Shown in pieces: positions 14,294 to 21,388 of a stretch of 45,231 nucleotides of DNA. The translations under genes were made by a program, and so were the position numbers. The DNA comes from Ruminococcus sp. (GTDB lineage Bacteria > Bacillota > Clostridia > Oscillospirales > Ruminococcaceae), in contig JALELB010000049.1 of the NCBI GenBank assembly GCA_022768805.1, positions 1 through 45,231 on the forward strand, written 5' to 3'. Every line of letters begins with the position of its first letter. Position 1 is the stretch's first letter. The notes under the pieces were generated by a model. It saw only the letters and a program-made list of their open reading frames with translations. It was not told where the DNA came from and did no database searches.

Positions 14294-14329
14294 AGCGCCC
14301 GTTCCCACAGCAGGGAACGGGCGCTTTTT
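14294..14329 (+). terminator. Terminator after serA
   Basis: Perfect 13-bp stem AGCGCCCGTTCCC (14294-14306) with GGGAACGGGCGCT (14313-14325), 6-base loop, then TTTT. It also separates serA from the convergent EAL gene. Confidence 0.95.
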
Positions 14330-14344
14330 GCATATCCCGGGGTA

Positions 14345-17065
14345 TCAGGGATTGATCCGCACACTCTTGCGGCCACCCTGGGTGGAGACGCTGCCGCAGC
14401 GGGTGCCCACGTCGATAACGCTGGCCGCCAGCATGGTCATATCCAGCTCCGCATCCTTCAGCAGAATGGAGCCTGCCCCCTTGGGGTCTCCGATGCCGGC
14501 AATCTCCGACCCTTCGCAGTTCAGGGCAATATTGGCGTTGTCCACCACCGTGTTGATGGTGCCGTCGATGGTGCCGATGGCGGAGCAGAACCGGGCGTTG
14601 ATGGCCATGCTCACGGAGGAATCCCGGATGTCGATGGTGCCGGTACCCTTTTCCAGGGTACCGATGCCCACGGATTTGTTGCCGGTTCCCCGGAAATCCA
14701 CCCGGGCATTCACGGCAATATCCACGCTGCCCTTAAAGGAACCGATGCCCACGGAGCTTGCCGCATCCGCCGTCAGCGCCAGCTCACAGTCGGACACCTC
14801 CACCCGGGCATTGCCCTCCCGGCTGCCCACACAAATGCCGGCAATGCCGGAGGTGGTAACGCTGATTCCCCCGGACAGCAGCCGGATCCGGGCGCCGGAG
14901 TCGTTAAGCCCGCCGCCGATACCCACGCACTGCTCCCCGTTGGTGTTGAGACACACCTTTCCCCCGGTGGCAAGGGTAATGTTTCCATAGGCGTGCTCCA
15001 TATCATTGCCGATGCCGAAGCTGTTGGCCCGGTCCGTGCTGACGGTCAGATCCCCGTCCCCCACAATGGTAATGGAGGAGCCCTCCGGCACGCAGATGCC
15101 CATATGCTCCAGACGGTTGACCCCCTCCAGCACCAGGGTCAGGCTGCACATGTCTCCCAGCTGGATGCAGGGACTCCCCACGCCCCGCAGGTTCACATCC
15201 CGCAGGGTCAGGGTGCAGTCCAGCCCGTCCTCCAGCTTCAGCACCATATTGGAGGTATGGGCAGCCTCCCCCACGATGGTGAGGCACTGCTCCCGGATGA
15301 GAATATCCGTGTAATGCTCCAGGGCAAGCCGGATAAGATCCACGCTTTCGTCACTTTTGGCGGTATAGCTGCGGCTGGCAAAGATGCGGTTTTCCAGATT
15401 AAAGCTGATGATCTCGTTCTGGACGGTTTTGGAAATCTGCCGCACCAACACCGGCTTGGGCCGGGAGGTGTAGAACCCCTGGATAAGATCCGCCCCCAGC
15501 TGGATTACCGTCCGCAGCTCCTGCCGGGTCTCCACGCATTCCGCAATGACGGAAATGCCGTTTTCGTGGGCAAAGCTGATAATATCCGACACAAGGCGCC
15601 GCTTTTTGGCGTCGTTTTCAATGCCGCTGATGAGGGCACGGTCAATCTTCACATAATCCGGCATCATCATCAGCAGCCCGGAGGTGTTGGAGTAGCCTGC
15701 CCCGTAGTCGTCAATGGCGAAGCTGCAGCCCAGGGTGGTGCACCGTGCCTTGAGGGTATCCACCAGGTCGCTGTTCACATCGCTCTGCTCCGTCACTTCA
15801 ATGACGATATTTTCTAAAAGCTCCCCATAGGTGGTCTGGAGCAGGTCAAAGTCCGTTTCCGTGAGAAGATGATCGGAAATGGCGTTGATGAACAGCTTTT
15901 TGTCCGCAAGAGCCTCCTGGTGCTCGCTGAAAACCTGCATGGCGTTGAACATGGTGGCATGCTCCACCGCATACAGCCGCTTGTTCTGCTCCGCAATCCG
16001 GAGAATCTGGGTGGCGGTGAGGGGCAGCTCCCCTGCCCGCATGAGAATTTCAAAGGCAAAAATCTCTCCGGTCTTGGCGCTGACAATGGGCTGAAAATGA
16101 TAGGTAAAGGCATTTTCGCTGACCAGCCGGCGGAACAGCTGCAGCTCCCGGAACTGGGTCTTGTCCGCCTCGTACCGGGTCTTGTTGAAGGCGCAGATGT
16201 CCTTCCGCTCGTTGATGGCCTCAAACACGGAGAAGTTGGCGTGGTTGATGAGGGTATCCAGATCATAGCTGCCGGCGGTGCGGACCGAGTACCCCAGGCT
16301 GATGGTCAGGGCGTTGCTGGCGTCAATCTTCAGCACCTCGCCGAAATCATCGGTAATGACGCAGCCGGAAATCGCCTCCCGCATGCGCTGGAAGATGGTT
16401 CCCACCTGCTCGGCGGCGCTTCCCCCCACATAGACCATGAATTCCTTATAGGAGCGCATGCCGATGATGACCTGGGGAGAGGAAAAGCTCCGCAGCGCCT
16501 GGCTGATGGCAATTACACACCGGTCATTCTGGCTGTAGCCGTACTGCTGGGCAATCTGCTCGATGCCGTTGACGTGCAGAATGGCAAAATAGCCCGCTCC
16601 CGGATAGCTGCGCATACACTGCTCCGTGTGGCGGATAAAGGCGCTCCGGTGGTACAGGTGGGTCAGGGCGTCGTATTCCCCCGCATCCTGGAACACCGGA
16701 CAAAAGGCGTCGTTGTAGTGAGTAATATCCTGAACAAAGCCCATCCAGCTCTGGGCGTCCCGCTCCACAAAGCTCAGCCGCAGCTGGAGCTGCTCCTCCC
16801 CAAGGCTGTACTGATAGACCTGGTTCTGCCGGGCAACCGGATTCCGGGTAATGTCCTGCATCACCTGGGTGAACTGGTCGTGGGACAAAAGCCCGTTGGG
16901 ATGTTCCTTCTTGATATGCAGGATCCGGAAGGTATTGTCATCCAGATAAGCCTCCCGGGTGGTGTGGATGTATAAAAAAGCGCCCATATAGGGAAACAGC
17001 TTCTGAAAGATTTCCCAGTCATGATCCGTGGGACTGGCAGCGTGTTCGGAAAGGTTGAAAATCAT
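14345..17065 (-). CDS. PAS / degenerate GGDEF / EAL protein fused to a repetitive beta-solenoid-like domain
   Basis: Predicted cytoplasmic protein of 906 residues without a signal peptide or TM helices. Residues 1-125 look like a PAS fold (from FLYIHTTREAY to FVQDITHYND). Residues about 130-268 are GGDEF-like but lack the active GG(D/E)EF motif (GMRSYKEFMVYV). Residues about 320-550 form an EAL phosphodiesterase domain with most catalytic motifs: FEILMRAG (for EAL), TEQSD, DDYGAGYSN, KIDRALI, AECVET, IQGFYTSRP; it should hydrolyse cyclic di-GMP to pGpG. Residues about 594-906 are repeats of roughly 28 residues with a recurrent (S/C)VGIG-type turn, at G686, G717, G747, G775, G802, G831, G859 and G887, as in right-handed beta-helices of secreted Clostridia surface proteins. 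The start at 17065 follows GAGGTG; upstream codons overlap the promoter. The fusion is the striking feature; the solenoid ligand is unknown. Confidence 0.88.
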   Translation of the reverse strand: MIFNLSEHAASPTDHDWEIFQKLFPYMGAFLYIHTTREAYLDDNTFRILHIKKEHPNGLLSHDQFTQVMQDITRNPVARQNQVYQYSLGEEQLQLRLSFVERDAQSWMGFVQDITHYNDAFCPVFQDAGEYDALTHLYHRSAFIRHTEQCMRSYPGAGYFAILHVNGIEQIAQQYGYSQNDRCVIAISQALRSFSSPQVIIGMRSYKEFMVYVGGSAAEQVGTIFQRMREAISGCVITDDFGEVLKIDASNALTISLGYSVRTAGSYDLDTLINHANFSVFEAINERKDICAFNKTRYEADKTQFRELQLFRRLVSENAFTYHFQPIVSAKTGEIFAFEILMRAGELPLTATQILRIAEQNKRLYAVEHATMFNAMQVFSEHQEALADKKLFINAISDHLLTETDFDLLQTTYGELLENIVIEVTEQSDVNSDLVDTLKARCTTLGCSFAIDDYGAGYSNTSGLLMMMPDYVKIDRALISGIENDAKKRRLVSDIISFAHENGISVIAECVETRQELRTVIQLGADLIQGFYTSRPKPVLVRQISKTVQNEIISFNLENRIFASRSYTAKSDESVDLIRLALEHYTDILIREQCLTIVGEAAHTSNMVLKLEDGLDCTLTLRDVNLRGVGSPCIQLGDMCSLTLVLEGVNRLEHMGICVPEGSSITIVGDGDLTVSTDRANSFGIGNDMEHAYGNITLATGGKVCLNTNGEQCVGIGGGLNDSGARIRLLSGGISVTTSGIAGICVGSREGNARVEVSDCELALTADAASSVGIGSFKGSVDIAVNARVDFRGTGNKSVGIGTLEKGTGTIDIRDSSVSMAINARFCSAIGTIDGTINTVVDNANIALNCEGSEIAGIGDPKGAGSILLKDAELDMTMLAASVIDVGTRCGSVSTQGGRKSVRINP

Positions 17066-17105: not shown

Positions 17106-17134
17106 ATTATACTACGACCCGGCGGATTTGTCAA
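17106..17134 (-). promoter_or_regulatory. Consensus promoter of the EAL/solenoid gene
   Basis: Minus strand: TTGACA (17129-17134), 17 bases, TATAAT (17106-17111). This is a perfect match to the sigma-A consensus, with a leader of about 35 bases. Confidence 0.9.
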
Positions 17135-17282: not shown

Positions 17283-18335
17283 ATGAAGGAACAGAACAGG
17301 CCCTGTACCGGCGAGGAAATGGCGGCACGGATGCACATCGGCTGGAATCTGGGCAACAGCCTGGACTGCTTTGCCCCGGGCAAGGGGCTGGAGGCGGAAA
17401 CCGCCTGGTTCAACCCGCCGGTGACCCGCCGGGTGCTGGAAACCGTAACGGAGGCGGGCTTTGACGTGCTGCGCATCCCCGTGACCTGGGCGGGGCATTT
17501 CGGCAAGGGGCCGGAGTACCGGCTGGACGAGGCATGGCTCTGCCGGGTGGAGGAGATTATCAGCTGGGGGCTGGAGCTGGGCGCCTATGTGATTGTCAAC
17601 CTGCACCACGACGGCTCCGCCATGAACGATCCCCATACCTGGCTGGTGCCGGATGGGGCGCACATCGAAAGCGTGCTGCCGGTTTTCACCGCCCTGTGGA
17701 CCCAGCTGGCGGCCCGGTTCGGCGGATACGGGGAAAAGCTCATCTTCGAGTCCATGAACGAGCCCCACTGCGGAAATGACTGGGTGGGAAATCCGGAGCG
17801 GTATGCTGCGGTAAACCGGCTTAACGAAGCCTTTGTCCGGATTATCCGTTCCTCCGGAGAGCAAAACCGCACCCGGAAGCTGCTGCTGCCCACCTATGCG
17901 GCGTCCCCCAAGGAGGCCGCCATTAAGGGGCTGGTGCTGCCGGAGGATCCGTACCTGATGGCCTCGGTACACGCCTACACCCCCACGGAATTCTGCTTCC
18001 CCTCCCGGGAGGTGAACTGGGCGGAGCCCCGGATCCGGTGGGGCAGCCCGGCGGACCGCACCCAGCTGACGGAGCAGCTTGATCGGCTGGAGAACCGGTT
18101 TGTACGCCGGGGAATTCCCCTGCTGATCGGGGAATTTGCCGCCGTGTGCAAGCCCGACGATGCACAGCGGCTGGCCTGGGCGGAATACTACGTCCGGGAG
18201 GCTGCACGCCGGGGAATCCGGTGCCTGTGGTGGGATACCTGCACCGGAAAGGAAAGCATGGGGCTGCTGGATCGGCACAGCTGCCGCTGGCTGTATCCGG
18301 AGCTGGTACAGACCCTGATCCGGGCAGCATACTGA
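17283..18335 (+). CDS. GH5-family glycoside hydrolase, apparently intracellular
   Basis: Single-domain enzyme of 350 residues of the GH5 family (endoglucanases and relatives). Motifs in order: HIGWNLGNSLDCF (barrel start), FDVLRIPVTW, VIVNLHHDG, acid/base Glu160 in FESMNEPH, SVHAYTP, nucleophile Glu284 in LLIGEFAAV, and CLWWDTC. Unlike the xylanase at 1-2177 there is no signal peptide, binding module or dockerin, so it probably acts in the cytoplasm on imported oligosaccharides. The start at 17283 is preceded by GGAACGGAG. The frame stays open upstream to 17028, but that stretch overlaps the divergent promoter and 5' end of the EAL gene and encodes no leader peptide. Monocistronic, with its own promoter and terminator. 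The exact substrate (beta-glucan, xyloglucan or mannan) cannot be told. Confidence 0.9.
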   Translation: MKEQNRPCTGEEMAARMHIGWNLGNSLDCFAPGKGLEAETAWFNPPVTRRVLETVTEAGFDVLRIPVTWAGHFGKGPEYRLDEAWLCRVEEIISWGLELGAYVIVNLHHDGSAMNDPHTWLVPDGAHIESVLPVFTALWTQLAARFGGYGEKLIFESMNEPHCGNDWVGNPERYAAVNRLNEAFVRIIRSSGEQNRTRKLLLPTYAASPKEAAIKGLVLPEDPYLMASVHAYTPTEFCFPSREVNWAEPRIRWGSPADRTQLTEQLDRLENRFVRRGIPLLIGEFAAVCKPDDAQRLAWAEYYVREAARRGIRCLWWDTCTGKESMGLLDRHSCRWLYPELVQTLIRAAY

Positions 18336-19915: not shown

Positions 19916-21388
19916 TCAGAGTATAAAGCAGATGAGTCCGCCGCAGCCCTCGTTTATGACCCGCTCCAGGGTCTCCTGCAGCTTCATCCGGGCCTCCACC
20001 GGCATTTTGTACAGCTTGTTGTGGAGTCCCTCGTTCACCAGCTCGTGGAGGGATTTGCCGAAGATGTTGGATTCCCAGATCTTTGTGGGATTCTCCTCAA
20101 ACTCCTGCAGAAGATACTTGACCAGCTCCTCGCTCTGCTTTTCCGTGCCCACGATGGGGCTGACGGTGGTATTGATGTTCGCCCGCATAAGATGCAGGGA
20201 GGGGGCGGAGGCCTTGAGCCGCACCCCGTATTTGCCCCCCTGCCTGATGATCTGGGGCTCCTCCAGGGACAGCTCCGTAATATCCGGCATCACGATGCCG
20301 TAGCCGGTTGCCTCCACCTCAGAAAGGGCAGCCTCCAGCCGGCCGTATGCCTTCTTGATGCGGCTCAGCTCCAGCAGCACCGGCAGCAGATCACTTTCCG
20401 AGCCGATTTCCAGCCCGGTGGCCTCTCCCAGAATCTGATAGAACAGTCCCGGATCCAGGCTGACCGCCACGGTGACCGCACCGCAGCCCAGATCAATATC
20501 CCGGACCCGGGCGTCGGTGATCTGGGGGCAGCTGATGCTTCCGCACAGGCTCCTTGCGTCCCTGACGGTGACCAGCTCCGCTGCGGCAGAGCGGATGGCG
20601 CCGAATACGGATTCCCGGAGCCAGTGATCCGGGGCAAGCTCCGTGATCCAGCCGGGCATCTCCACCCGGATCTCCCTGACCGGAAAGGCGTAGAGAATCT
20701 GGGTGATGATGCTGCGGATGTCGGTTTCCGTCAGCTCCAGGCAGCTTACCGGAATGACCGGCGCCCCGTATGCCCGGCGCATCTCCTCGCACAGGGCAAG
20801 GGCCTCCTCCCCCTCCGGCTCCGTGCAGTTGAGAATCACCACAAAGGGCTTCCCCAGATCCTGCAGCTCCCGGATTACCCGCTGCTCGCACTCGGCGTAT
20901 TCGCTCCGGGGAATATCCGAAATGGAGCCGTCGGTGGTAACCACCAGCCCGATGGTGGAATGCTCGGAAATCACCTTCCGGGTGCCCACCTCCGCCGCCA
21001 TGCTGAAGGGCACCTCCTCCTCAAACCAGGGGGTTGCCACCATCCGGGGGGCTTCGTTCTCGATATACCCCAGGCTGCTGGGCACGATGTACCCCACACA
21101 GTCAATGAGCCGCACCCGGAGCCGTGCTCCCTCCTCCGGACTGATCTCCACCGCCTCCTCCGGAATGAACTTGGGCTCGGTGGTCATAATGGTCTTTCCG
21201 GCAGCGGACTGGGGCAGCTCATCCATGGCCCGCTCCCGCTTGAAGTCCCCCTCAATATTGGGAATCACCAGGGTTTCCATGAACCGCTTGATAAAGGTGG
21301 ATTTTCCGGTACGCACCGGTCCCACCACGCCGATGTAGATGTCGCCGCCGGTGCGCCCGGCGATGTCGCTGTAAATATCCTGTGCCAT
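19916..21388 (-). CDS. spoIVA: Stage IV sporulation protein A (spore coat basement ATPase)
   Basis: Protein of 490 residues, full length for SpoIVA, the ATP-driven polymerising protein that forms the platform for the spore coat around the forespore. The N-terminal P-loop is GPVRTGKS (residues 23-30); the switch-like IDCVGYIVPS and a GTPase-like NCTEP follow, as in the TRAFAC-derived SpoIVA ATPase. The C-terminus GGLICFIL resembles the hydrophobic membrane-targeting tail of the family. The start at 21388 follows AGGAGGT. sipL ends 4 bases upstream, so the two are cotranscribed, which matches the known SpoIVA-SipL interaction in Clostridioides difficile. Confidence 0.96.
   Translation of the reverse strand: MAQDIYSDIAGRTGGDIYIGVVGPVRTGKSTFIKRFMETLVIPNIEGDFKRERAMDELPQSAAGKTIMTTEPKFIPEEAVEISPEEGARLRVRLIDCVGYIVPSSLGYIENEAPRMVATPWFEEEVPFSMAAEVGTRKVISEHSTIGLVVTTDGSISDIPRSEYAECEQRVIRELQDLGKPFVVILNCTEPEGEEALALCEEMRRAYGAPVIPVSCLELTETDIRSIITQILYAFPVREIRVEMPGWITELAPDHWLRESVFGAIRSAAAELVTVRDARSLCGSISCPQITDARVRDIDLGCGAVTVAVSLDPGLFYQILGEATGLEIGSESDLLPVLLELSRIKKAYGRLEAALSEVEATGYGIVMPDITELSLEEPQIIRQGGKYGVRLKASAPSLHLMRANINTTVSPIVGTEKQSEELVKYLLQEFEENPTKIWESNIFGKSLHELVNEGLHNKLYKMPVEARMKLQETLERVINEGCGGLICFIL

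Follow-up and report, generated by a model that had tools for sequence, protein, structure and literature searches.

What is a large repetitive domain doing behind the EAL domain of a bacterial signalling enzyme? The question is raised by one gene in the window, by which we mean the whole stretch of 45,231 bases that was analysed; it is one complete contig (G000:C35) of a Ruminococcus genome of 1.91 Mb that is 99.35% complete. Enzymes of cyclic di-GMP (c-di-GMP) turnover usually vary in their sensors and end with an EAL or GGDEF domain. Here, a large domain follows the EAL domain, across many genera and in paralogues with different sensors. An earlier note on this DNA had proposed a c-di-GMP phosphodiesterase fused to a β-solenoid, and had left room for the architecture being common and already characterised. 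No EAL protein with a β-helix or solenoid tail was found among the titles and abstract openings searched, in a collection with few subscription journals, and the c-di-GMP signalling of Ruminococcus relatives is hardly present in the same literature.

The features of the locus are collected in Table 1. Over its full length, the gene has relatives with identities of 92% (L014), 60% (L015) and 38% (the R. flavefaciens loci L212 and L249). The promoter-like site matches the perfect consensus that the earlier note had described, with no mismatch in either hexamer. The convergent gene beyond the hairpin carries the name serA-like on our own reading by eye.

Table 1. Coordinates of the EAL-solenoid gene, its domains and its flanking features in the window.
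Feature	Position	Strand	Remarks
EAL-solenoid gene	14345..17065	minus	Open frame, ATG at 17065, 906 aa plus stop
N-terminal region, residues 1-130	16676..17065	minus	No PAS match
Degenerate GGDEF domain, residues 131-283	16217..16675	minus	Signature SYKEF; Pfam PF00990, E 5e-9
EAL phosphodiesterase domain, residues 311-536	15458..16135	minus	Pfam PF00563, E 7.7e-50
C-terminal β-helix-type repeat domain (predicted fold), residues 566-906 (~340 residues)	14348..15370	minus	Rungs begin at residue 684, with 27-31 residues each
Promoter-like site, TTGACA-17-TATAAT	17106..17134	minus	12/12 matches; just upstream of the EAL-solenoid gene
Terminator-like hairpin	14294..14325		13-pair stem, on both strands; between the EAL-solenoid gene and the convergent serA-like gene
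GH5 cellulase-family gene	17283-18335	plus	PF00150; divergent from the EAL-solenoid gene

The EAL domain scores 169.9 bits against PF00563, far above the curated cut-off of 31.3 bits. Eleven positions that we take to be the metal-binding and catalytic set of active EAL domains (E339, N394, E423, E426, D452, D453, K473, D475, E509, E512 and Q529) are identical in all 55 EAL domains aligned, in agreement with the intact EAL domain that had been proposed. With this full motif set the enzyme should be active, and the protein is probably a phosphodiesterase that degrades c-di-GMP. The closest solved structure by sequence is Bd1971 (6hq4, E 1.3e-19). The protein shares its EAL domain and motif set with the PF00563 phosphodiesterases, and differs from them by the 340-residue repeat domain at its C-terminus. 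NCBIfam listed 24 models of EAL or GGDEF type, all below their cut-offs, with GepA and DosP the nearest. A C-terminal domain after the EAL has a precedent in YkuI of B. subtilis, where the extra domain is PAS-like rather than a solenoid.

Upstream of the EAL domain, the GGDEF-like domain is degenerate, as the earlier note had read it. None of 51 aligned GGDEF-like domains of the family, including that of the window protein, keeps GG[DE]EF, and the window protein lacks this signature of a diguanylate cyclase. Outside the 51-domain set, the signature is retained as GGDEF in the LacI-type protein L111 and as SGDEF in L110 and L113. The PAS-like domain suggested for the N-terminus fared less well: neither Pfam nor PDB searches gave a PAS match for residues 1-130, and it remains a pattern seen by eye. 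The best PDB profile match of this region covers 23 residues of a designed TIM barrel (E 0.0017). Across nine relatives, residues 1-130 contain seven invariant columns (W, G, F, D, L, Y and G).

The C-terminal tail is a genuine repeat. It had been placed at residues 594-906 (about 310 residues); the repetitive tail itself stands, and its start moves, as the conserved domain begins near residue 566. The glycine spacing of 27-31 residues fits the proposed repeat of about 28. Seven of the eight glycines picked out in the earlier note (686, 717, 747, 775, 802, 831 and 859) fall in columns that are 93-100% glycine among 55 tails, and the eighth, G887, is present in this protein and is not among the conserved columns. 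In a plain autocorrelation, lag 28 was the best for both hydropathy and glycine and passed the 95% level set by 2000 shuffles, yet stayed under the shuffle maximum (0.213 versus 0.215 for hydropathy, 0.191 versus 0.289 for glycine). Because the plain autocorrelation did not exceed the maximum of the shuffles, we added a rung test, in which seven rungs were cut at the conserved glycines. The mean between-rung hydropathy correlation was 0.268, and none of 5000 within-rung shuffles exceeded 0.184; with only the last five rungs, the corresponding values were 0.321 and 0.28. By this test the repeat is beyond chance. Each rung contains short alternating hydrophobic runs, which are typical of parallel β-helices.

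The pairing of EAL domain and tail is widespread. Among 396 sampled genomes of the same family, a profile built from nine tails matched 96, which belong to 24 of 126 genera. It also matched 22 of 394 genomes sampled from the order and 16 of 391 sampled from the class, and a 55-row profile matched two of 299 genomes in the phylum sample. These samples overlap, and, by the score lists, nothing more than weak partial matches stands behind two of the 96 family genomes (G109 and G349), four of the 22 from the order and three of the 16 from the class. We then considered 161 sources, namely the window and 160 stretches from matched places in the family, order and class samples. They contain 149 frames that reach at least 100 bits for the tail, of which 144 carry an EAL domain in the same frame. 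Among the five that do not, contig ends truncate L088, L338 and L349, with the last part of an EAL domain still visible in L088; L347 is a fragment, and L135 is a secreted-type protein with six tail copies. Another ten frames, none with an EAL domain, stay below 100 bits, and two of them are second frames in loci that also hold a strong one (L325 and L329). In four of the examined loci the 55-row profile found no match. As an aside, L347 (G302:C12) is an orphan tail of 192 residues.

Named genome contigs gave the same picture. A scan with a single tail confirmed no relative, and a scan with seven tails yielded 138 related stretches, the best 80 of which were used. Of these best 80, 65 are titled Ruminococcus, including R. 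flavefaciens FD-1, ATCC 19208, MA2007, Y1, YL228 and YAD2003; the remainder comprise MAGs titled Oscillospiraceae, Clostridiales or Clostridia, together with Anaerotruncus sp. MC2020 and a single MAG that bears the label Alistipes. The last (L213) has a Ruminococcus-type gene, and its label may be wrong. GGDEF-like domain, EAL domain and tail lie in one frame in all of the best 80 named loci, three of which are cut by the locus end. The earlier note had asked whether a sequencing frameshift might have joined two genes. Such an artefact is ruled out, as the same joint occurs in 144 of the 149 strong frames and in 80 of 80 named loci. The proposed search for this architecture in other genomes has thus returned 144 EAL-tail frames: the pairing recurs in many gut bacteria, and the tail is a conserved part of it.

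What varies is the N-terminus. Among the 144 EAL-tail frames, 32 have a soluble GGDEF-like N-terminus, 34 a LacI-type one (three of these with GGDEF) and 30 a short one; a further 24 have two TM-like segments as called by a hydropathy scan (23 of them with a GGDEF-like domain), 22 are soluble and of other kinds, and two are cut. In Pfam searches of 55 N-termini, 25 matched GGDEF and 19 a LacI-family binding domain. The linker between EAL domain and tail is 21-24 residues long in 118 of the 144 frames.

An EAL tree of 80 rows (55 with and 25 without the tail) requires two changes of the tail label, compared with a mean of 21.4 when the labels are shuffled, and one change is enough in 14% of 200 bootstraps; the rows with a tail had been selected through that tail, and the tail-less rows come from 13 genomes only. 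Removal of two long rows reduces the count to one change, but the branch that would unite a single clade has a support of 0. The EAL search of the 13 relatives gave 39 matches, of which five are the tail-bearing places of the family sample. The simplest reading is one fusion followed by exchange of the inputs, and a single origin is likely. One EAL domain without a tail (L163, from G006) has a long branch and falls among the tail-bearing rows, as a possible loss or an artefact of the tree.

The short, near-constant linker invites an explanation that stays within the molecule: the tail might stabilise the EAL dimer or gate the active site, with no outside partner. This would agree with the near-confinement of the tail to one EAL group, and with the gradient of conservation along the tail, where mean identity is 0.43-0.49 near the EAL domain and falls to 0.32 at the C-terminal end. 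However, many EAL enzymes do without such a tail, including three of the four EAL matches in the window's own genome (the tail is present on the fourth only), and 340 residues is large for a lid. We regard an intramolecular role as somewhat unlikely, if worth keeping in mind.

The relatives of the tail offer a clue to its fold. The architecture is real and conserved. No Pfam or NCBIfam model covers the tail, and in the Pfam search of the window protein nothing came near the cut-off on it. Ten frames of 373-2477 residues with weak tail matches, none of them carrying an EAL domain, proved more informative. Seven of the ten have a hydrophobic segment of signal or anchor type. Five were scanned with Pfam, and all five match Beta_helix_3 (PF18889), three of them above the cut-off. 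Two, L126 and L131, also contain InlB-type repeats, together with CBM_X2 in L126 and SLH in L131. A comparison of the 55 tails with 19 secreted segments by hhalign gave a probability of 99.4% and an E of 1.5e-21 over 156 columns, which indicates homology even though the segments had been chosen with the tail profile, a choice that favours the match, and even though part of the score reflects repeat periodicity, since the reversed profile still reached 72.5% and E 3.2e-5 (ten column-shuffled controls gave E 0.25-0.91). The earlier note's comparison with the GIG-rich secreted solenoids of Clostridia is thereby upheld at the level of profiles. The aligned columns include the block N.L...GI.VP....L.I.G.G.L. 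The secreted PF18889 proteins differ from the family studied here in their signal- or anchor-like segments and in having no EAL domain, and PF18889 in turn gave no match in the 55 tails at E 0.1.

The secreted segments lead on to a family of known structure. Against 15 Cthe_2159 members from relatives they gave 97.8% and E 9.9e-13 in hhalign, whereas the tail itself matches Cthe_2159 only weakly when compared directly (34.6%, E 4e-4; reversed control, E 0.11), and no Pfam match of the tail to Cthe_2159 (PF14262) was obtained. The only PDB match of the 55-row tail profile is 4peu/4phb (E 0.0085), which is named 'Uncharacterized protein' in the PDB and which we take to be Cthe_2159 (PF14262). 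The likeness to this carbohydrate-binding β-helix family, which is extracellular, is linked through the secreted domains. We infer through the same secreted intermediate that the tail folds as a parallel β-helix. The kinship points to an intracellular use of a fold family that is known from surface adhesins.

Kinship with surface proteins could also mean that the tail is no more than a relic, left over from a fusion with the gene of such a protein. Both the homology to secreted proteins and the greater divergence of the C-terminal rungs would be compatible with this. It is hard to reconcile with the occurrence of 144 EAL-tail frames across several families and many genera, or with the rate of substitution: between the window gene and L014, dN/dS is 0.121 in the tail, compared with 0.093 in the EAL domain, 0.070 in the GGDEF-like domain and 0.082 in residues 1-130. 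The tail is therefore under purifying selection, and we consider a relic very improbable.

The gene neighbourhood does not point to a target. A divergent pair of GH5 and EAL-solenoid genes is kept in the window, L014 and L015, the three genomes of the same genus that were compared. At the R. flavefaciens-type loci, the neighbours of the EAL-tail gene are instead rpoD-like and ychF-like genes, as recognised by eye. Since the neighbours differ between the groups, gene context names no target, and a cellulase-linked function, considered on account of the GH5 neighbour, was dropped. Several smaller observations belong here. Among 77 of the 80 loci L185-L264, 65 have a ychF-like ORF immediately downstream, and in 32 the first ORF upstream is rpoD-like, both named by eye. 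A signal peptide is not evident by eye in the GH5 gene. Further along, at 19916-21388 on the minus strand, lies a gene for the sporulation protein SpoIVA, matched by all three of its Pfam domains. No known RNA family was found in the window at gathering level.

Our best explanation of the whole, which we hold tentatively and rate a little short of an even chance, is that the protein belongs to a distinct family of cytoplasmic c-di-GMP phosphodiesterases, whose EAL domain is joined to a C-terminal β-helix for output, assembly or docking. In such an enzyme, the EAL domain would hydrolyse c-di-GMP, and the input would come from the exchangeable N-terminus, be it a GGDEF-like region, a sugar-binding domain of LacI type, TM helices or hardly any sequence at all. 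The tail would be an output or assembly module rather than an input, because it is found behind the EAL domain whatever the N-terminus. It may cluster the enzyme, or dock it to a partner with a fixed place in the cytoplasm, and the removal of c-di-GMP would thereby be local. Docking or assembly is the least certain step of this explanation.

The composition of the tail bears on what it could bind. Tryptophan makes up 0.08% of the residues in the 55 tails, phenylalanine and tyrosine about 2.4% each, and there is no conserved row of aromatic residues. The net charge ranges from -3 to -24. In the 55-tail alignment 20 columns are invariant or close to it, 15 of these are glycines, and hence no partner-binding patch stands out. 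Scarce tryptophan, glycine-dominated conservation and net charge together argue against a typical aromatic glycan-binding face, and leave assembly, docking or an intramolecular role.

These features weigh on the proposal that the tail is a ligand sensor, for a glycan or another polymer, that switches the EAL domain allosterically, in line with the carbohydrate binding suggested for its secreted relatives. The proposal has several attractions: the homologous secreted domains occur together with SLH, InlB-type and CBM_X2 domains, the LacI-type inputs in 34 of the 144 frames make sugar sensing a theme of the family, and in the window's genus the gene next to it, in divergent orientation, encodes a GH5 protein. 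Against it stand the aromatic-poor composition just described and the location of the protein. The earlier note had seen no TM helix, and the hydropathy scan likewise shows no TM-like segment in the frame; a polymeric glycan is rarely free in the cytoplasm. Moreover, the tail accompanies every type of N-terminal input, unlike the usual sensors. We therefore think a sensory tail quite unlikely. Among the roles of the tail we favour assembly or docking, if only modestly.

For the assembly of a cytoplasmic protein through a β-helix, bactofilins provide an analogy. They are cytoplasmic and polymer-forming, and their fold has been modelled as a β-helix, with a left-handed helix hypothesised (PMC4372379). 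The likeness to the EAL-tail protein is by analogy only, and no bactofilin Pfam match was seen in the 55 tails at E 0.1. A more specific version of the assembly reading, which we judge unlikely as it stands, would have the tail act as a self-assembling or partner-docking cytoplasmic β-helix from the superfamily of surface adhesins. The phosphodiesterase might then form filaments or clusters that act as a spatially organised c-di-GMP sink, with exchange of the inputs (GGDEF-like regions, LacI-type sugar domains or membrane anchors) and retention of the assembly module. With such a protein, local control of c-di-GMP by a dedicated assembly or docking domain becomes directly testable.

Finally, we looked at the wider c-di-GMP complement of the window's genome. 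It contains nine GGDEF and four EAL matches, so that a c-di-GMP signalling network is likely; no PilZ match was found in this genome. On another of its contigs, in a stretch of C58 at about 14.7-21.7 kb, two ORFs that match Cthe_2159 β-helix proteins have a GGDEF match close by, which makes this a second place where c-di-GMP signalling and β-helix proteins meet.
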